Of a stretch of DNA of 38,685 nucleotides, positions 26,221 to 35,870 are shown in pieces. Every line of letters starts with the position of its first letter. Within the stretch, counting starts at the first letter, position 1. This stretch comes from an uncultured Pelagibacteraceae bacterium. Lineage in GTDB: Bacteria; Pseudomonadota; Alphaproteobacteria; Pelagibacterales; Pelagibacteraceae. Both the position numbers and the translations under genes were made by a program. The notes beneath the pieces are model-generated. The model did not search any database and was not told the origin of the DNA. It saw only the letters and a program-made list of their open reading frames with translations. Where the stretch lies: NCBI GenBank assembly GCA_902583685.1, contig CACHWO010000004.1:1-38685 (forward strand), written 5' to 3'.

Positions 26221-26246
26221 ATAATAGTTCTCAAATGGAGAAAACA

Positions 26247-27290
26247 ATGAATAAACTAATAAAAACAATAGGATTTGGAATTGTTGGATTATTTTCAACA
26301 ATACTGGTTGCAAGTTCAGTTTTAGCAGACGGACACTCTAAAGAGGTAAATATTTTTAGTGCTAGACATTATGATTCCGATGTTCAGCTATATGAAAAAT
26401 TTACAGCAAAAACTGGAATAAAGGTCAATGTAGTTTCTGGAAAATCAGGAGCTCTTGAAAAAAGAATCATCGCAGAAGCAGGAACAGCCGACTTATATAT
26501 TACAGCTGACGCCGGAAGATTGGGAGCATTTCAGGCCAACCTACAAGGTGGTTTGACAAGCTCAACAATTAAATCTGCTGTTCCGAGTAATTTTAGAACA
26601 TCTAAATGGGTTGGAATAGCTAAAAGAGCAAGAATTGTTTATTTTGCCCCTGAAAGAGTTAGCGGAGCAGAGTTAGCAGGTTTAACTTATGAAAGTTTAG
26701 CCGATTCTAAATGGCGAGGTAGACTTGTGATAAGAGCATCTAACAACATTTACAATCAATCACTTGTAGCATCATTAATTAAAAATAATGGAAAAGGTAA
26801 AGTAGCAGAATGGTCAAAAGGAATGGTTAAAAATATGGCAAGAGCCCCAAAAGGTAACGACAGGGCTCAAATTTTAGCAGTAGCAGCAGGAGAAGCAGAT
26901 ATTGCAGTTGCTAATACATATTATTTGGCTCTAATGCTATCAGGAAAAAAAGGAGCTGAACAACAAGCTGCTGCTAAAAAAGTGAAACCTTTCTTTCCAA
27001 ACCAAGATGGCAGGGGAACTCACATGAATATTAGTGGTGCAGGTTTAGTTAAAGGAGCACCTAATAAAGCTAATGCAATTAAATTAGTAGAATTTTTACT
27101 AAGTGAAGAAGCACAAAACCACATAGTAAACAATACTTTTGAGTATCCTATGATCGCAGGTGTTTCACCTCATCCACTAGTAGTGAATATGGGTTTAGAT
27201 TTTAAACAAGATCTAAAAACAAAAGTTGTAAACTACGGTAAAAGACAGGCTGATGCATTAGAAGTAATGACAGCTGCTGGTTGGAAATAG
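26247..27290 (+). CDS. fbpA: Fe(III) ABC transporter substrate-binding protein FbpA-like
   Basis: About 347 residues with a signal peptide (MNKLIKTIGFGIVGLFSTILVASSVLA) followed by VNIFSARHYDSDVQLYEKF, the standard start of class F iron-binding proteins. NTYYLALML (near 229-237) supplies the paired tyrosines that bind ferric iron. An in-frame ATG at 26235 would add four residues. I prefer 26247 because GGAG at 26237-26240 then serves as its ribosome site. A Fur box lies upstream. It is followed by a hairpin and T9 before the permease gene, and the operon continues with fbpB and fbpC. Confidence 0.92.
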   Translation: MNKLIKTIGFGIVGLFSTILVASSVLADGHSKEVNIFSARHYDSDVQLYEKFTAKTGIKVNVVSGKSGALEKRIIAEAGTADLYITADAGRLGAFQANLQGGLTSSTIKSAVPSNFRTSKWVGIAKRARIVYFAPERVSGAELAGLTYESLADSKWRGRLVIRASNNIYNQSLVASLIKNNGKGKVAEWSKGMVKNMARAPKGNDRAQILAVAAGEADIAVANTYYLALMLSGKKGAEQQAAAKKVKPFFPNQDGRGTHMNISGAGLVKGAPNKANAIKLVEFLLSEEAQNHIVNNTFEYPMIAGVSPHPLVVNMGLDFKQDLKTKVVNYGKRQADALEVMTAAGWK

Positions 27291-27303
27291 TTATATAATT
27301 AAA

Positions 27304-27344
27304 ATTGTGTTGCACTGTTGTGAAACACAATAAAGTTTTTTTTT
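27304..27344 (+). terminator. Hairpin plus T9 between fbpA and fbpB
   Basis: ATTGTGTT (27304-27311) pairs perfectly with AACACAAT (27324-27331). Four bases later a T9 tract (27336-27344) runs directly into the fbpB ATG at 27345. It looks like a partial intrinsic terminator or 3' stabiliser of fbpA mRNA, although the stem is A/T-rich and the T tract slightly displaced. Confidence 0.5.
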
Positions 27345-28961
27345 ATGACAAGATATAATATTTGGTTTTACATTTCACTTTTCATAGCTGGCATTGTAGC
27401 ATTACCTATAATAACAGTTTTTTTTAGTTTTTTTTCTGAAACAAGTAATTATTTCACTTTATTAAAAAATACTTTTCTCTTTGATTATATTAATAATTCA
27501 TTAATAATATTAGTATCTGTTTTGGTAATAACGTTTTTTATAGGTGTAATATCTGCTTATTTTGTATCTTTTTACGACTTTCCTTTTTCCAATTTTTTTA
27601 GCTGGTCTTTAATTTTAGCTTTTGCAATACCAGGATATATTTTTGGATTCTCTATAATAGCTTTTTTTGAAAATTACGGAACTGCTTATACTATATTAAC
27701 TAATTTATTTGGTGAACATAATTATAACCCTTTAATACCAAAATTTGACAGCTTAGTTGGATCTATTATAGCAATAAGTTTTTCACTTTTCCCATACGTT
27801 TTTGTTTTAACAAGATCATCTTTTTTGTTCCAATCTAATAACTATATTGAGGTCGGTAAAAATTTAGGTTTAACCGAAAAAGAGACCTTCCTTAAAATTA
27901 TATTGCCGTCAGCTAGGCCGGCTATTATTGCTGGATTGGCTTTGGTATCTATGGAATGTCTATCCGATTTCGGCACAGTGTCATTTTTCAGCGTAAATAC
28001 TTTAACAACTGGAATTTATAACTCGTGGTTGTCATATGACGATCTAAATACTGCCAATCAAATTTCTTTTATACTACTCATATTTATTTTATTGCTATTT
28101 TCGGTTGAATTATATTCAAGAAGAGAAGCTAAATATCACCAACCAAGTCGTGGCTTTAAACCAATTAATAAAATTAGATTAACTGGTAAGAAATCTATAA
28201 TTCCTTTCTTATTCTGTTTAACAATTTTTTTTATAAGTTTTGTTTTTCCGGTTACACAAATGATTTTTTGGACAGTAAAATTTCCAAAATATTTTCAAGA
28301 TATTGATATTTTAAAAATTAATCTAAATACGTTATATTTAGTTGGCTTAGCAAGTATATTTTTAGTTTTTATTTCTTTACTAATTAATTTTGGTAGCAGA
28401 ATATCAAAAAGCAAAATATTAAATTATTTAACTAATTTTTCAATCTCAGGCTATGCAATTCCAGGAGTAATCTTAGCAGTAGCATTTATAACTTTCTTTT
28501 CCAATCTTAGCGATTTAATCACAAATAATTTTAACATTGGAAATACAAAAAATTTATTTATTGGTTCAATATCAGGTTTAATACTTGCATACTTTGTTAG
28601 ATTTTTTTCACTTTCATTTAATGGAATTAAATCGAGCTATGAAAAAATTAATAATTCGATTGATGAAAGTGCTTATTTACTTGGATATTCAAAAGTTAAA
28701 ACTTTTTCAAAAATTCATGTTCCATATTTAAAAAATAACATTATTTTAATAGTAGTATTAATTTCACTTGAAGTAATAAAAGAGCTGCCCATAACTATGA
28801 TTCTAAGACCTTTTAATTTTGAAACATTTGCTACACAAGCTTTTGTTTATGCCTCACAAGATTTATTAGAAGCCGCAGCTTTACCTTCTTTATTTTTAAT
28901 AGGCTGGTCAACAATTCTAATATTATTCTCCACAAAATATATACTTTCACCTAAAAATTAA
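27345..28961 (+). CDS. fbpB: Fe(III) ABC transporter permease FbpB-like (fused two-domain)
   Basis: A 538-residue permease with about twelve hydrophobic helices in two homologous halves. Each half has an EAA-type loop: EVGKNLGLTEKETFLKIILPSARP near residues 169-192 and DESAYLLGYSKVKTFSKIHVP near 441-461. The fused form is normal for FbpB/AfuB iron permeases. ATG 27345 is preceded by T9 and lacks any purine-rich ribosome site, so initiation must be unusual or depend on coupling. It lies 12 bases upstream of fbpC. Confidence 0.92.
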   Translation: MTRYNIWFYISLFIAGIVALPIITVFFSFFSETSNYFTLLKNTFLFDYINNSLIILVSVLVITFFIGVISAYFVSFYDFPFSNFFSWSLILAFAIPGYIFGFSIIAFFENYGTAYTILTNLFGEHNYNPLIPKFDSLVGSIIAISFSLFPYVFVLTRSSFLFQSNNYIEVGKNLGLTEKETFLKIILPSARPAIIAGLALVSMECLSDFGTVSFFSVNTLTTGIYNSWLSYDDLNTANQISFILLIFILLLFSVELYSRREAKYHQPSRGFKPINKIRLTGKKSIIPFLFCLTIFFISFVFPVTQMIFWTVKFPKYFQDIDILKINLNTLYLVGLASIFLVFISLLINFGSRISKSKILNYLTNFSISGYAIPGVILAVAFITFFSNLSDLITNNFNIGNTKNLFIGSISGLILAYFVRFFSLSFNGIKSSYEKINNSIDESAYLLGYSKVKTFSKIHVPYLKNNIILIVVLISLEVIKELPITMILRPFNFETFATQAFVYASQDLLEAAALPSLFLIGWSTILILFSTKYILSPKN

Positions 28962-28973
28962 TATAATCAATAA

Positions 28974-30044
28974 ATGTCAAAAAATTTTTTTGAAATTATA
29001 AACGGCCACTTTGTGGCCAGTGAAAAAAATAAGGTTAACAAAGTAAATTTAAAAATAGAAAAACAAGGCGATATAGTTTCATTGTTAGGTCCGTCAGGTG
29101 TTGGAAAAACCACTATTTTGAGAACAATAGCTGGTTTACAAAAAATCAGTTCAGGTGAAATTTATTTAAAAAATAAAATAATTTCTTCTGATAGTTTTCA
29201 TTTGGAGCCGGAAAAAAGAAATATAGCTTTATCCTTTCAGGATAATTCTCTTTTTCCAAATTACAAAGTCATTGACAATATTAATTTTGGAAAAAAAAGA
29301 TTTAATGGAAATAGAACTATTTTAAATGCAAATGATATTATTAAGTTACTACATATTGATCCAATACTAGAGAAATTTCCCCATCAAATTAGTGCTGGAG
29401 AAGCTCAAAGGGTCTCTCTAGCTAGATCGATAATGTCGAAACCAGATTTGTTACTACTTGATGAACCTTTTTCTAATATTGACCAAAGTTTAAAAGACGA
29501 AATACAATATTCGGTAAAAAATTTATTAAAAGAAATTGGTCTTACTACAATTTTAGTAACGCATGACTCTTTCGAAGCTTTTTCAATAGCTGACAAATGT
29601 GGAATAATATTAAATCAAGAGTTAAAACAATATGATGTACCATATAATGTTCATCACGAACCCAATTCTATCGATGTAGCTAATTTCTTAAACAAAGGTA
29701 TTTTTATAGATGTTAGAGTTATTGATAGTGAGTGCGCAGTTCATAGATTAAAACATGACGAATTAGGAGAAATTAGAGGAAAATTATCCAACAATTTTAC
29801 TTCTGGTTCGAAAGTTAAACTTCTTTTACAACCTGAAGATTTGATACACGACGATCAAAGTAATCTAAAATTAGACGTTGTTGATAGAAAATTTAGAGGA
29901 ACAAATTTTATTTATACCTTAAAAACAAAAAAGGGGGAGCATTTGCCAGTTTTTGTTCATTCTCATCATATTCATCAACACGAAAAAAATGAAAAATTTG
30001 GAATTAAAACTCCAATTTTTATTGACCATCTGGTATGTTTTTAA
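28974..30044 (+). CDS. fbpC: Fe(III) ABC transporter ATPase FbpC-like
   Basis: A 356-residue ATPase. Walker A is GPSGVGKTT (39-47), the Q loop SFQDNSLFP, the signature ISAGEAQR (139-146), Walker B LLLLDEPFSNID (159-170) and the H-switch LVTHDSFEAF with His197. The signature is slightly off consensus (ISAGE for LSGGQ), but the glycine at the key position is kept. A C-terminal regulatory region follows after about 235, ending in a His-containing stretch (VHSHHIHQHEKNEKFG). It ends 22 bases before the tRNA-Arg gene. Confidence 0.92.
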   Translation: MSKNFFEIINGHFVASEKNKVNKVNLKIEKQGDIVSLLGPSGVGKTTILRTIAGLQKISSGEIYLKNKIISSDSFHLEPEKRNIALSFQDNSLFPNYKVIDNINFGKKRFNGNRTILNANDIIKLLHIDPILEKFPHQISAGEAQRVSLARSIMSKPDLLLLDEPFSNIDQSLKDEIQYSVKNLLKEIGLTTILVTHDSFEAFSIADKCGIILNQELKQYDVPYNVHHEPNSIDVANFLNKGIFIDVRVIDSECAVHRLKHDELGEIRGKLSNNFTSGSKVKLLLQPEDLIHDDQSNLKLDVVDRKFRGTNFIYTLKTKKGEHLPVFVHSHHIHQHEKNEKFGIKTPIFIDHLVCF

Positions 30045-30066: not shown

Positions 30067-30143
30067 GCGCCCTTAGCTCAGTTGGATAGAGCATCGGTTT
30101 TCTAAACCGAGGGTCGTAGGTTCGAATCCTTCAGGGCGCGCCA
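30067..30143 (+). tRNA. tRNA-Arg (anticodon TCT)
   Basis: A 77-base cloverleaf with CCA encoded. The acceptor stem is GCGCCCT/AGGGCGC, the D-arm AGCTCAGTTGGATAGAGC, the anticodon stem CGGTT with loop TTTCTAA type and anticodon TCT, and the T-arm contains GGTTCGAATCC. It would read AGA, the arginine codon favoured in this AT-rich sequence. Confidence 0.97.
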
Positions 30144-30349
30144 TTCTATTTAAAGTGGTAATTAACTAAATATTGTTCTTTTTAAATTTTTTAATATAGA
30201 TGATGTAGTATTTTAATTCCATGATGCCAAAAGGTCATTTTGGGTCGCCCTCAAATTACTTGATCCTACAAATGTAATAATCGATACTAACTATAAATTA
30301 CATTGGTTTGTAATTTATTGTTAACAATAAATAAATATAAGGAGCATAA
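30144..30349 (+). promoter_or_regulatory. aapJ leader region with promoter and overlapping hairpins
   Basis: This 206-base gene-free stretch holds a hairpin CCAAAA-GGTCA-TTTTGG (30227-30243), then a candidate promoter TTGATC (30260-30265), 17 bases, GATACT (30283-30288). Two overlapping inverted repeats follow: a 10-base-pair stem (30293-30302 with 30309-30318, loop TTGGTT) and a perfect 20-base palindrome (30313-30332). They share 30313-30318, so both cannot form at once. A ribosome site AAGGAG lies just before ATG 30350. I recognise no known riboswitch class here. Confidence 0.55.
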
Positions 30350-31390
30350 ATGCTAAAAATAATAAGAAACTTTGTATTGTTTTTATCCGCTGTTCTTTTG
30401 TTAGCTGCATGTCAGCAACAAGGTGGAAGTGGAAAAAAGTCTAAGACTTTAGATAATACAAAAAAAGCTGGCTTCGTAAAGTGTGGAGTTTCTCAAGGTC
30501 TACCAGGATTTTCTAATGCTGATGCATCAGGAAATTGGACAGGTATAGATGTAGATGTTTGCAGAGCAGTTGCTGCTGCAGTTCTGGGTGACTCTGAAAA
30601 AGTTAAATACTTTCCTTTAAGCGCTAAAGAAAGATTTACAGCACTTACATCTGGTGAAATTGATGTTCTATCAAGAAATACTACTTGGACATTATCAAGG
30701 GATGCTGACATAGGTTTAACCTTTGTTGGTGTTAACTTCTATGATGGTCAGGGTTTTATGGTAAGAAAAAATTCTGGAATCAACTCAGTAAAAGATTTTA
30801 GAGATGGAATATCAGCTTGTACAAACATTGGAACAACTACAGAGCTTAATATGAGAGATTTCTTTAATTCTAGAAATATCAAATACGAACCTGTTGCTTT
30901 TGAAAAAGCAGACGAAGTTGTTGCAGCTTATGATGCTGGTAGATGTGATACGTACACAACAGATAAATCTGGTTTGGCCGCTCAAAGAACTAAATTGAGT
31001 GCACCAAATGATCACATTGTATTACCTGAAACAATATCAAAAGAACCTTTGGGCCCTGTTGTAAGACAAGGGGATTCTGTATGGGAAGATATTGTAAGAT
31101 GGTCATTAAATACTATGATCGAAGCTGAGGAATATGGCATTAATTCATCAAATGCAGACAGCATGACATCATCAGATAACCCGCAAATCAAAAGACTTGT
31201 AGGGGCTGAAGGTGAGCTTGGTGCGGCGTTTGGTTTAGATAATGAATGGAGCTTAAGAATTATCAAGCAAGTAGGTAATTATGGTGAAAGCTATAAGAAA
31301 CACATAGCAGACACAGGTATTTTGCCTAAGAGAGGTCCAAATGAATTATGGACTAAAGGTGGTATTCTTTATGTTCCACCAGCAAGATAA
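30350..31390 (+). CDS. aapJ: General L-amino acid ABC substrate-binding protein AapJ
   Basis: A 346-residue binding protein of the AapJ/BztA family, which binds a broad set of polar L-amino acids. The segments GIDVDVCRAVAAAVLGD, LSRNTTWTLSRDADIGLTFVGVNFYDGQGFMV and LGPVVRQGDSVWEDIVRWSLNTM are characteristic. The N terminus ends in a lipobox, LLLAAC (Cys21), followed by a Gly/Ser/Lys linker, so the mature protein is probably lipid-anchored; most AapJ proteins are soluble periplasmic. A strong hairpin with a T tract separates it from aapQ. Confidence 0.95.
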   Translation: MLKIIRNFVLFLSAVLLLAACQQQGGSGKKSKTLDNTKKAGFVKCGVSQGLPGFSNADASGNWTGIDVDVCRAVAAAVLGDSEKVKYFPLSAKERFTALTSGEIDVLSRNTTWTLSRDADIGLTFVGVNFYDGQGFMVRKNSGINSVKDFRDGISACTNIGTTTELNMRDFFNSRNIKYEPVAFEKADEVVAAYDAGRCDTYTTDKSGLAAQRTKLSAPNDHIVLPETISKEPLGPVVRQGDSVWEDIVRWSLNTMIEAEEYGINSSNADSMTSSDNPQIKRLVGAEGELGAAFGLDNEWSLRIIKQVGNYGESYKKHIADTGILPKRGPNELWTKGGILYVPPAR

Positions 31391-31459: not shown

Positions 31460-32611
31460 ATGACTAATAAACAAAAAAAAATTTTACCTCAAATATTTAC
31501 ACTCTTACTTATTATATTAATTTTTGGGTTTTTTACTATCAATGCCCAAATGAATATGTCTAACAGGGGTATTGATTTTGGTTATGGCTTCTTAAGCCAA
31601 GAATCATCCTTTGATGTACAATTCTCTTTAATCGAATACGACGGATCACACTCTTATGCTCGTGCTTATCTTGTAGGTCTTTTAAATACTATTTTAGTAT
31701 CTGTTTTAGGAATTATTTTTTGTACTATTCTCGGTGTTGTGGTTGGTATAGCAAGACTTTCACCAAATTATTTAATTAGGACTACAGCAAGTTGGTATGT
31801 TGAATTTTTTAGAAACGTTCCCTTGTTGTTGCAAATATTTTTTTGGTATTATGCAGCTTTAAGAGCTCTTCCGCTTCCAGAAAATACCGAGCCTCTATTT
31901 GGTGTAACATATTTAACTGTTAAGGGATATTACATGCCAGGCTTTATTTGGGAAAATTTTAATATTTTAATGTATTCAATTTTAGCAGCTATAATTTCTA
32001 TTGTTGTTATAAGATCACATGCAAAAAAAATACAAGAAGAACGAGGAAAACAACTTCCAGTTTTTTTTATCTCAATAGGATTACTAATTGTTTTACCTGC
32101 TTTAACTATAATCACAGGAATAGTTCAAGTAGAAGTTGAACTACCAATTTTAAAACAATTATCAAAAACTTCTTTTATTTATGAGGGAGGAGTTAGTGTT
32201 CCTCCGGAATTGATAGCTTTAGTATTAGCATTATCTCTTTACACAGCTACTTTTGTTGCCGAGTGTGTAAGAGCTGGAATTCAAGGAATTAGCAAAGGTC
32301 AAAAAGAGGCTGCAGCTTCTGTTGGTTTGACACCAAATCAAATATTGAAATTAGTTATAATGCCACAAGCTTTAAGAATAATAATTCCACCAACTACAAA
32401 TCAATATTTGAATTTAACAAAAAACTCATCTTTAGCAGCAGCAATTGCATATCCTGATTTAGTATTAGTTTTTGCTGGTACAGCTTTAATGCAAACAGGT
32501 AGGGCAATCGAGATAGTATCCATTACAATGTTAACCTATCTAACTCTAAGTTTGTCAATATCAGTATTAATGAATTGGTATAACAAAAAAATAGCAATTA
32601 AAGAAAAATAA
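31460..32611 (+). CDS. aapQ: General L-amino acid ABC permease AapQ
   Basis: A 383-residue permease of the His/Glu/Gln/Arg class. The family start, INAQMNMSNRGIDFGYGFLSQESSFDVQFSLIEY in position, is followed by AYLVGLLNTILVSVLGII and FFRNVPLLLQIFFWYYA, and the EAA loop GISKGQKEAAASVGLTPNQILKLVIMPQALR sits near 275-305. About eight helices are present. It is one base from aapM; the two form the heterodimeric channel of the broad-range amino acid importer. Confidence 0.95.
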   Translation: MTNKQKKILPQIFTLLLIILIFGFFTINAQMNMSNRGIDFGYGFLSQESSFDVQFSLIEYDGSHSYARAYLVGLLNTILVSVLGIIFCTILGVVVGIARLSPNYLIRTTASWYVEFFRNVPLLLQIFFWYYAALRALPLPENTEPLFGVTYLTVKGYYMPGFIWENFNILMYSILAAIISIVVIRSHAKKIQEERGKQLPVFFISIGLLIVLPALTIITGIVQVEVELPILKQLSKTSFIYEGGVSVPPELIALVLALSLYTATFVAECVRAGIQGISKGQKEAAASVGLTPNQILKLVIMPQALRIIIPPTTNQYLNLTKNSSLAAAIAYPDLVLVFAGTALMQTGRAIEIVSITMLTYLTLSLSISVLMNWYNKKIAIKEK

Positions 32612-32612
32612 T

Positions 32613-33887
32613 ATGAAAAATATTAATATTTTAAAACCTAATAAAGATAACTTTAGAACATACTTATTTATTGGAATAACACTTGTATTTTTAGGTGTTT
32701 TTGATGTTTTTTTAAGAAGTTTTTTTATGGTAAATTTTCTATCTTTCTTACCTAATTTATTAAATTTTTTACTGCCCTTTATTTTAGGTTTAGTAGGATT
32801 ACAAATGATTAGATTAGAATATTCAGGTGTTAAGTTGGTAGACACAGTTAATAAAAATATAAATAACAATATATTTAATGCAGGATTAACATTGTTTATA
32901 ATATTCATAACAATATTGGCACTCCCACCTTCACTTAATTGGATGATATTTGATGCCAATATTTCAGGCGACACAAAAGAGGCTTGCGTGGCGGTTGAAG
33001 GGGCCTGTTGGACATATATTAAGGTATGGTTAAGAAGATTTATGTATGGAATGTATCCAAACGAGTTTCATTGGAGAATTAATACAGCTTTTATTATTTT
33101 AATTTCATTTGCTTTTGTGGGCTTTTTTGCAAAGGGAAAATTTAAAAATTATTTAACATTTTATTATGCAATAATTTACCCAATCATAGCTTTTTTAATA
33201 ATATATTTTCTGATTTCAGGAGGATCCTTTGGTTTGGAATGGGTTGAAACCAATGCTTGGGGAGGTTTATCATTAACATTTATAGTTTCTTTTTTTGGTC
33301 TAATTTTTTGTTTTCCGCTCGGTATGATATTTGCTTTAGGTCGTAGGTCTGAATTACCCGTCATAAGATATATCTCAATTGGTTATATTGAGTTTTGGAG
33401 AGGCGTTCCATTAATAACGGTTTTATTTATGTCTTCCGTGATGTTTCCAATGTTTTTACCTGCTGATACATTTGTTGATAAATTAGTTAGAGTGGTTGCA
33501 GCGATAGTTTTATTTGAGGCAGCATATGTAGCTGAAGTAATTCGTGGTGGTTTACAAGCACTTCCAAGAGGTCAATATGATGCTGCTAAATCTTTAGGGA
33601 TGGGATACTGGAAAATGCAAACTTTTGTAATTTTACCTCAGGCTTTAAAATTAGTAATTCCTGGTATAGCTAATACATTTTTAGCATTAGTTAAAGATAC
33701 ACCTTTAATCTTTGTTGTAGGTTTATCAGAAGTTGTAGGAATGCTACAAATGGCAAAAACAAACCCTAAATGGCTAGGATATGCAATGGAAGGCTATATT
33801 TTTGCCGCTGTATTATTTTGGGCAATTTGTTATGCTATGAGTAGATATAGTCAATATTTAGAGTTAAAATATAAAACAGATAGGTAA
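32613..33887 (+). CDS. aapM: General L-amino acid ABC permease AapM
   Basis: A 424-residue permease, longer than AapQ as is typical. N-terminal helices (about 14-70 and 88-110) precede the family segment [27 protein letters not shown]. The core permease domain has [12 protein letters not shown] and the EAA loop [31 protein letters not shown] near 314-345. Spacing is 1 base from aapQ and 8 bases from aapP. Confidence 0.95.
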
Positions 33888-33895
33888 AATATTTT

Positions 33896-34627
33896 ATGTC
33901 AGCAATTATACAGATGAAAGACGTAAACAAATGGTTCGGGGATTTTCAGGTTTTAAAAGATATCAATCTTGAAGTTGGTGAGAAGCAAAAAATTGTTGTT
34001 TGCGGACCTTCAGGCTCAGGTAAATCAACATTAATCAGATGTATTAATAGACTTGAGGAACATCAAAAAGGGAAAATCATAGTAGATGGAAACGAATTAT
34101 CAGAGAGAACAAAGGATATTGAAAAAATTAGAGCTGAAGTTGGAATGGTTTTTCAACAATTCAATTTATTCCCACATTTATCGATTTTAGACAACTGTAC
34201 ACTAGCTCCAATATGGGTAAAAAAAACGCCAAAAAAAAAAGCTGAAGATTTTGCGATGAAACAATTAGAACAAGTTCAAATTTCTGATCAAGCTTCAAAG
34301 TTTCCCGGGCAATTATCAGGTGGTCAACAACAAAGAGCAGCTTTGGCAAGAGCGTTATGTATGGAGCCAAAAATTATGCTTTTTGATGAACCCACATCAG
34401 CACTTGATCCTGAAATGATTAAAGAAGTTTTAGATGCTATGGTTAATCTCGCAAAAGCAGGAATGACGATGATAGTAGTAACTCACGAAATGGGTTTTGC
34501 AAAAGAAGTTGCAGATGAGGTAGTTTTTATGGATGAAGGCATGATTGTAGAAAAAGCAAAAACAAATGAATTCTTTGCAAACCCAAAAAATGAAAGAACG
34601 AAGTTATTTTTAAGTCAAATTCTTTAA
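33896..34627 (+). CDS. aapP: General L-amino acid ABC ATPase AapP
   Basis: A 243-residue ATPase of the polar-amino-acid class. Walker A is GPSGSGKST (37-45), the Q loop [12 protein letters not shown], the signature [15 protein letters not shown] (140-154), Walker [14 protein letters not shown] and the H-switch VVTHEMGFA. All sites are consensus. It completes the aapJQMP operon, and a secreted DUF6134-like gene follows 16 bases later. Confidence 0.96.
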
Positions 34628-34643
34628 ATTTTTATAAAATTTA

Positions 34644-35327
34644 ATGGAAAGATTTTCAATCTTTATATTTTTTTGGTTAATTTTATTACCAAACAAACTA
34701 TATTCACACGTAAATCATTACAATAAAATCAAATTGTTAAAATATGATTTATTTTTGAATAATAAACTAATTGGCTTTCATAATTTTGAGTTCAATAGAA
34801 TTAACGGCAAACTTCATGTAGTTGGTTCGGGTTATTTTAAAGTTAATAAACTCGGCATAGATTTAATTAAATATAGAACAAAAAGTAAGGGAATTTATAA
34901 AGATAATATGTTAGTGGAATTTAATTCAGAAACACTGCAAAATGAAAAAAAAAAATATGTAAGAATAAAATCAGATAAAAAAAAATTATTGATTGATGGA
35001 TCATCATTTAATGGCAAAACAACATACGACTCTATAGTAAGTGATTTGTGGAATCACGAAATTGTATTAAAACAGCATCAAATTAGCTCAGTATCAGGAA
35101 GAGTTATAAACCAAGAAGTAAAATATTTGGGAAAAGATAAAATATTCATTAAAAATAAAGAATTTAATACAGTTAATTTTCATCTTTTTTCAAAAAACGA
35201 AAAACCCATGAATGAAAAAAAGATTAATTTAAAAATTTGGTACGATGAAGCATCACTAATTTGGATTAAAGCTTCTTATGAAAAATTTGGAACATGGGAG
35301 TATCGATTAAATGAAGTAAAATATTAA
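34644..35327 (+). CDS. DUF6134-like exported protein
   Basis: A 227-residue protein with a signal peptide (MERFSIFIFFWLILLPNKLYS). The mature part starts YDLFLNNKLIGFHNFEF and is predicted to be largely beta: repeated short strands, then KLGIDLIKYRTKSKGIYKDNMLVEFNSET, SDLWNHEIV, a G-containing turn and LKIWYDEASLIWIKASYE. This layout resembles DUF6134/DUF3108-type periplasmic proteins of unknown function. Placed 16 bases after aapP it may be co-transcribed, but I see no reason to tie it to transport. The family call is by pattern memory only. Confidence 0.65.
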   Translation: MERFSIFIFFWLILLPNKLYSHVNHYNKIKLLKYDLFLNNKLIGFHNFEFNRINGKLHVVGSGYFKVNKLGIDLIKYRTKSKGIYKDNMLVEFNSETLQNEKKKYVRIKSDKKKLLIDGSSFNGKTTYDSIVSDLWNHEIVLKQHQISSVSGRVINQEVKYLGKDKIFIKNKEFNTVNFHLFSKNEKPMNEKKINLKIWYDEASLIWIKASYEKFGTWEYRLNEVKY

Positions 35328-35495: not shown

Positions 35496-35870
35496 ATGGA
35501 AAAAAACTTTAACACGCATTTAGGTAAGAAATTAAGAATGCGTAGGTTGTCACTGGGTCTAACCCAAACAAAAGTTGCAAATGCGATTAATGTTACCTTC
35601 CAACAAATTCAAAAATACGAAAAAGGAACTAATGGTGTTAGCTCAAGTCGTTTATTACAACTCTCTGAATTTTTAAAAGTACCAGTAAATTATTTTTATG
35701 ATGATTTTAGTGAAAACAAACAAGAGGATCATCCACAAACGCAACAAAATGATCATTTAGATCTAAACTACTCTTTTTTAATAAAAATATTTGCAAAGTT
35801 ATCTTCAAATCAAAAAAGTAAGATTCTTCAAATATTAAAAAATAACGCAGATTTAAGAGAAACAGGTTAG
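35496..35870 (+). CDS. XRE-family helix-turn-helix regulator
   Basis: A 124-residue protein with an N-terminal Cro/CI-type HTH: HLGKKLRMRRLSLGLTQTKVANAINVTFQQIQKYEKGTNGVSSSRLLQLSEFLKVPVNYFYDD (about 7-68). This closely follows a well-conserved alphaproteobacterial regulator family. The C-terminal part is polar with a short helix (FAKLSSNQKSKILQILKNN). It has a good ribosome site (GAGGGA) before ATG 35496 and a 168-base upstream gap, where I see only A/T-rich sequence and a short GGGT/ACCC hairpin near 35400. Targets are unknown. It ends one base before the antisense tRNA-Asn. Confidence 0.88.
   Translation: MEKNFNTHLGKKLRMRRLSLGLTQTKVANAINVTFQQIQKYEKGTNGVSSSRLLQLSEFLKVPVNYFYDDFSENKQEDHPQTQQNDHLDLNYSFLIKIFAKLSSNQKSKILQILKNNADLRETG

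Follow-up and report, generated by a model that had tools for sequence, protein, structure and literature searches.

Stem-loops, operators and structured leaders

As cited in PMC7509114 (Emory, Bouvet and Belasco 1992), the mRNA of ompA, encoding an abundant envelope protein, is stabilized by a stem-loop at or near its extreme 5' end; the Shine-Dalgarno (SD) region downstream is unpaired, and the structure of the stem-loop matters rather than its sequence. Promoter-proximal palindromic operators of dimeric bacterial repressors are perfect dyads with an invariant core at a fixed spacing from the -10 hexamer. In alphaproteobacterial promoters, the sites of the XRE-type regulator PraR/CdxA and of NtrX are also short palindromes. 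Small conserved leader elements have been described among the candidate structured RNAs of Pelagibacter, one of them as 'two stems in series' (Meyer et al. 2009; PMC2704228).

The aapJ (yhdW) leader of SAR11 bacteria combines a hairpin, H1, with a palindrome, H2. H1 shares with the ompA element, as cited there, its (predicted) place at the mRNA 5' end of an abundant envelope protein, the unpaired SD region downstream and a dependence on structure. Unlike the ompA stem, it is short, AU-rich and followed by an invariant palindrome, and its stabilizing role is a putative one. H2 has the perfect dyad, the invariant core and the fixed spacing from the -10 hexamer of a repressor operator; it differs in lying downstream of the predicted start, with the centre of its core at about +27 to +29, and in being a site of nearly one gene. 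A PraR-like gene is found nearby, but the core of H2, TTGTTAACAA, matches neither the PraR/CdxA nor the NtrX consensus. The two-stem motif of Meyer et al. precedes pntA instead, and aapJ/yhdW does not appear in the main text of that paper.

The aapJ locus and its leader

AapJ/YhdW is a major amino-acid-binding protein of the most abundant heterotrophs of the ocean, in which nutrient control is poorly understood because regulators are few. The sequence analysed here (the window) is a stretch of 38,685 nucleotides from an AT-rich Pelagibacteraceae (SAR11; Pelagibacterales) assembly of 749 kb that is about 65% complete. Its aap operon comprises genes for a binding protein (SBP_bac_3), two permeases and an ATPase (Table 1). 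A gene for a DUF6134 protein (34644-35327) lies between aapP and the XRE regulator gene discussed below. Upstream of the tRNA-Arg gene, positions 26235-30044 are occupied by an operon for an iron-type binding protein, a permease and an ATPase; a candidate structured RNA is said to precede the related sfu operon of Ca. P. ubique (PMC2864753).

Table 1 Features of the aapJ leader and its surroundings in the window
Feature	Position	Strand	Remarks
tRNA-Arg (UCU), upstream of the leader	30067..30143	+	Often, not always, conserved as neighbour
-35 hexamer TTGATC	30260..30265	+	CTTGA kept in same-genus leaders; 17-nt spacing to -10
-10 hexamer GATACT	30283..30288	+	ATA.T kept in same-genus leaders; predicted +1 at about 30294-30296
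H1, 10-bp stem-loop, loop TTGGTT	30293..30318 (30293-30302 with 30309-30318)	+	-7.1 kcal/mol; covariation
H2, perfect 20-nt palindrome ATTTATTGTTAACAATAAAT	30313..30332	.	Dyad of 14-22 nt in all core-bearing relatives
H2 invariant core TTGTTAACAA	30318..30327	.	Identical in 98 unique leaders (see text)
Shine-Dalgarno AAGGAG	30339..30344	+	Outside both H1 and H2; from sequence
aapJ (yhdW), periplasmic amino-acid-binding protein	30350..31390	+	SBP_bac_3
aapQ, aapM, aapP	31460-32611, 32613-33887, 33896-34627 (span 31460..34627)	+	Downstream of aapJ

In the window, H1 reads ATAAATTACA-TTGGTT-TGTAATTTAT, with all 10 bp perfect. Both elements had been noticed in an earlier reading of the sequence (the original prediction), the coordinates of which proved exact to the base; a repeat search retrieved both. 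Their six-base overlap (30313-30318), the gap of 17 nt between the end of H2 and the ATG of aapJ, and the promoter upstream of the hairpins were equally borne out. This promoter matches the consensus at 8 of 12 positions, was missed by a consensus scan and is conserved in relatives. With the start expected some 6-8 nt past the -10 hexamer, the mRNA is predicted to begin at the foot of H1, giving a leader of about 55 nt. In strain HTCC7211, yhdW is reported to have an active transcription start of its own, which would fit this picture (PMC5069720). A short way upstream of the -35 hexamer, most leaders of the window's genus, g1, have a weakly conserved patch (GTCATTA...GACGC-like; GGTCATTTTGGGTCGCC in the window, 30233-30258), which is possibly an activator site.

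Leaders of relatives were collected by AapJ homology and not by motif. Among 101 related genomes, 78 were found to carry the gene, and 80 further aapJ loci came from named genomes, some of which may be the same as genomes of the first set. The core was carried by 112 leaders, 101 of them unique across the compared stretch. It occurs in aapJ leaders of genera g1, g2, g3, g4, g6, g8 and g13 and is missing from those of g5, g7, g9, g12 and family f2. Most of these core-less groups, g5 and g12 excepted, have other AT palindromes ahead of the SD sequence. The f2 and g9 leaders (L037-L039, L044-L067) have no H1, and most show a perfect TTTAATTAATTAAA or TTTAATTTAAATTAAA palindrome between the -10 hexamer and the SD sequence. 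By a simple promoter search, the -10 hexamer lies 3-8 nt from the start of H1 in 94 of 106 unique leaders (5-7 nt in 86) and 28-31 nt from the H2 core in 90 of the 106.

The element of hairpin and palindrome is genuine and conserved across SAR11 aapJ leaders, and its two modules, a stem-loop in the RNA and a palindromic site, are independent of each other. We put a probability of about one half on the joint reading that H1 is an ompA-like mRNA stabilizer and H2 a separate palindromic protein site, likely a DNA operator. What we infer from the sequences is the following course of events. A sigma70-type promoter would drive aap transcription from the predicted start, so that the mRNA would open with H1, a stem-loop apparently selected for pairing. 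H1 would most likely shield the 5' end from decay of the RppH/RNase E type, as the ompA stem-loop does, and a long-lived transcript of a highly expressed binding protein would result. H2, apparently selected for sequence, would be a separate palindromic site recognized at a constant spacing from the promoter, most probably as the DNA operator of a dimeric regulator, the two elements acting side by side and not as alternative folds. One of the best-expressed genes of SAR11 would thus offer two testable things, an element for mRNA stability and a site targeted by a regulator.

A palindrome conserved in sequence

The ten bases of the H2 core show 100% identity across 98 unique leaders whose H1 varies in every column, an invariance that is partly a selection effect, as the leaders were compared because they carry the core. 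A true lack of the core is seen at only one (L117) of the 110 loci that encode a full-length AapJ. In the last 50 nt of the L117 leader the core is lost and two dyads are kept (TATTTTGATCGATCAAAATA, then TTATTAATAA), a G-C pair having been replaced symmetrically by A-T. As an RNA fold H2 is weak: the copy in the window reaches -3.3 kcal/mol, compared with -7.1 for H1 there, and the copies of g3 and g4 reach -2.3 and -0.4. The weak fold together with the invariant core indicates that the sequence of H2 is conserved, not its stability as RNA. Its self-complementary centre, its invariance and its constant distance from the -10 hexamer favour a dimeric DNA-binding protein over an RNA hairpin; an invariant palindrome at a fixed promoter spacing is the pattern of a dimeric regulator's operator. 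The original prediction had offered a DNA operator as an option for the palindrome, and the sequence invariance agrees with this, the binding of a protein being the putative part of the proposal.

A point against an operator is that the core recurs at only one other leader, that of livK in two g3 genomes, which is unusual for a regulon; ahead of an SD sequence it is otherwise essentially confined to aapJ. The other core matches inspected lie inside genes, save one on a g2 contig (L087). In the two g3 genomes (L071 and L073, around position 1500), the core ATTGTTAACAAT precedes a LivK-like binding protein without an H1, and in the third g3 genome TTTTAATTAATTAAAA is present near the corresponding livK place (L238).

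The conservation of H2 could instead come from a sequence-specific RNA-binding protein. A possible, if tentative, alternative goes further along this line and takes both elements as RNA: two hairpins stacked in tandem would form a cis-regulatory leader, either for an RNA-binding protein such as a cold-shock protein or as a stabilizer or translation aid in the 5' UTR. Given a correct promoter assignment, H2 would be part of the transcript, the minimum-energy folds predicted for g3, g4 and g6 contain both helices, and symmetric changes occur in H2 (ATTG/CAAT to TTTG/CAAA, and TTATTAATAA of L117). Moreover, CspE/CspL have been suggested to exert post-transcriptional control in Ca. P. ubique (PMC2864753). 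This alternative is weakened by the very low stability of H2 as RNA, down to the -0.4 kcal/mol of g4, and by the invariance of the core including its self-complementary centre, which an RNA hairpin does not need, while H1 drifts freely.

Several known regulators were considered as binders of H2, with H2 taken as an operator. Sites of GntR-type regulators can look like H2. GntR is nevertheless disfavoured, being absent from 19 of 21 genomes. A PraR/CdxA-like XRE regulator gene (HTH_3) is located just downstream of aap in the window (35496-35870). It is linked to aap in several genera, is missing along with aapJ in several g1 genomes and was not found in any of the family f2 genomes searched. 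This regulator is disfavoured as well: its gene also occurs in genera that lack the core, and the PraR consensus, CAAC-N5-GTTG (PMC5527310), differs from the H2 sequence. NtrX was rejected on the grounds that its site, CAAN2-5TTG, is unlike TTGTTAACAA. When the literature was searched for TTGTTAACAA, no relevant regulator emerged from titles or abstracts.

A stem-loop conserved in pairing

A stem of 7-12 bp abuts the core in 100 of the 101 unique leaders and has at least 8 bp in 97 of them, a length reached by 6% of dinucleotide shuffles. The sole exception (L034) forms 9 bp around a loop of 15 nt; H1 loops otherwise span 3-6 nt, and 8 leaders contain G-U pairs. Unique core-bearing leaders contain 45 distinct H1 stems. 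As the H1 arms could not be aligned across stem classes with MAFFT, covariation was assessed with shuffles and chimeras. In the chimeras, which guard against circularity, the 5' half of one leader was combined with the 3' half of another before the search for the best stem was repeated. At least 8 bp were reached by 96-100% of native leaders, by 84% when arms were swapped within a class and by 13% when they were swapped between classes. The covariation that the original prediction had proposed to look for in aapJ leaders of relatives is thus present in H1, as judged from shuffles, chimeras and more than 110 leaders.

The two largest stem classes have their arms exchanged, ATTCAAAA...TTTTGAAT in g3 versus TTTTGAATT...AATTCAAAA in g4. 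Further classes are AATTACA...TGTAATT (g1, including the window), AAAAGTC...GACTTTT (g6) and AATGTT...AACATT (L032). About six changes of stem class are needed on the AapJ tree, so wholesale replacements are modest in number; smaller compensatory changes inside the classes add to them. H1 is, on this comparative evidence, under selection for its pairing rather than its sequence, which is the behaviour of an RNA hairpin, unlike that of a DNA operator. That H1 is instead a second operator, an inverted repeat in DNA, is improbable: its arms are fairly constant within g1 (AATTACA/TGTAATT), but they are exchanged between genera, loop length varies, G-U pairs occur, and sequence is replaced with pairing retained.

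For the preferred role of H1 as a 5'-terminal stabilizer, a stem-loop conserved by pairing and the enzymes of 5'-end-dependent decay are both found in the clade. RppH is encoded in 11 of the 12 genomes examined, the exception being the incomplete genome of the window, and RNase E/G in all 12. A caveat to this role is the AU-rich composition of H1, with no more than moderate stability. In one complete genome, H1-like 5'-terminal hairpins were found in 3 of 102 promoter-bearing leaders versus 3.3 expected, without enrichment, and the best of them was that of aapJ. With such stems at chance level genome-wide and aapJ the clear case, the feature is gene-specific. Protein and transcript of YhdW are reported to be uncoupled in HTCC1062, which would fit a leader with such a role (PMC13198564).

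Adjacent helices rather than alternative folds

The original prediction had interpreted the shared bases of H1 and H2 as a sign of mutually exclusive folding, as in riboswitches and attenuators. Of this interpretation, the structure itself holds and H1 covaries, but the switch does not. In the window, the two helices, both perfect, have six bases in common at full length, but only two when H2 is reduced to its inner four base pairs. The overlap is limited to g1. In g3, g4 and g6, H1 finishes before H2 starts, and the predicted folds hold both helices next to each other. No intrinsic terminator and no leader peptide were found in the aapJ leader, and over its predicted length of about 55 nt, H2 and the SD sequence excepted, it has no unpaired bases with aptamer-like conservation. 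The SD sequence is covered by neither H1 nor H2, so a helix sequestering it was not found in these two elements. A scan with Rfam 15 returned only tRNAs above the gathering threshold and no leader family. Because the overlap is not conserved and terminator, Rfam match and conserved unpaired stretch are lacking, alternative-fold switching is not the conserved function here, and a riboswitch or attenuator working by mutually exclusive folding is very improbable. Chance pairing, a worry raised at the outset for AT-rich DNA and in keeping with the low G+C content, is refuted by dinucleotide-shuffled copies of the 90-nt leader (a stem of at least 10 bp in 0.6%, a palindrome of at least 20 nt in 0.08%, both in 0.025%) and made moot by conservation in more than 110 leaders.

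Palindromes ahead of other SD sequences in SAR11

The sequence TTAATTAATTAA, followed by an SD sequence and ATG, precedes the genes of two LivJ-like proteins, PstS and OpuAC in several SAR11 genomes (L257-L271); the reversed control pattern gave no such matches. In one complete g3 genome (G032, L272-L331), perfect palindromes of at least 12 nt stand just before the SD sequence in 11 of 224 leaders versus 4.7 expected. Eight of these 11 belong to the genes of AapJ, PotD, OpuAC, LivK, DctP, a sugar-binding protein, proteorhodopsin and a porin-like protein, the last of which was named from its N-terminus only and has no Pfam match.

It is conceivable, albeit doubtful, that H2 of aapJ is one of a SAR11-specific class of perfect palindromes before the SD sequences of the most abundant exported proteins (AapJ, LivJ/LivK, PotD, OpuAC, DctP, PstS, the sugar-binding protein and the porin), each gene with a palindrome of its own. 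Together, these would form an undescribed expression device, working through 5'-end dyads at the level of DNA or of RNA, in a lineage whose transcription factors are very few. SD-proximal palindromes were counted at 6 of 13 binding-protein genes versus 20 of 563 other genes (Fisher p ~6e-6), a lead and not a result, as the set was chosen by our own reading of signal peptides after the pattern had been seen in other genomes. The SD-proximal perfect palindromes are AT-rich, and their sequence differs gene by gene.
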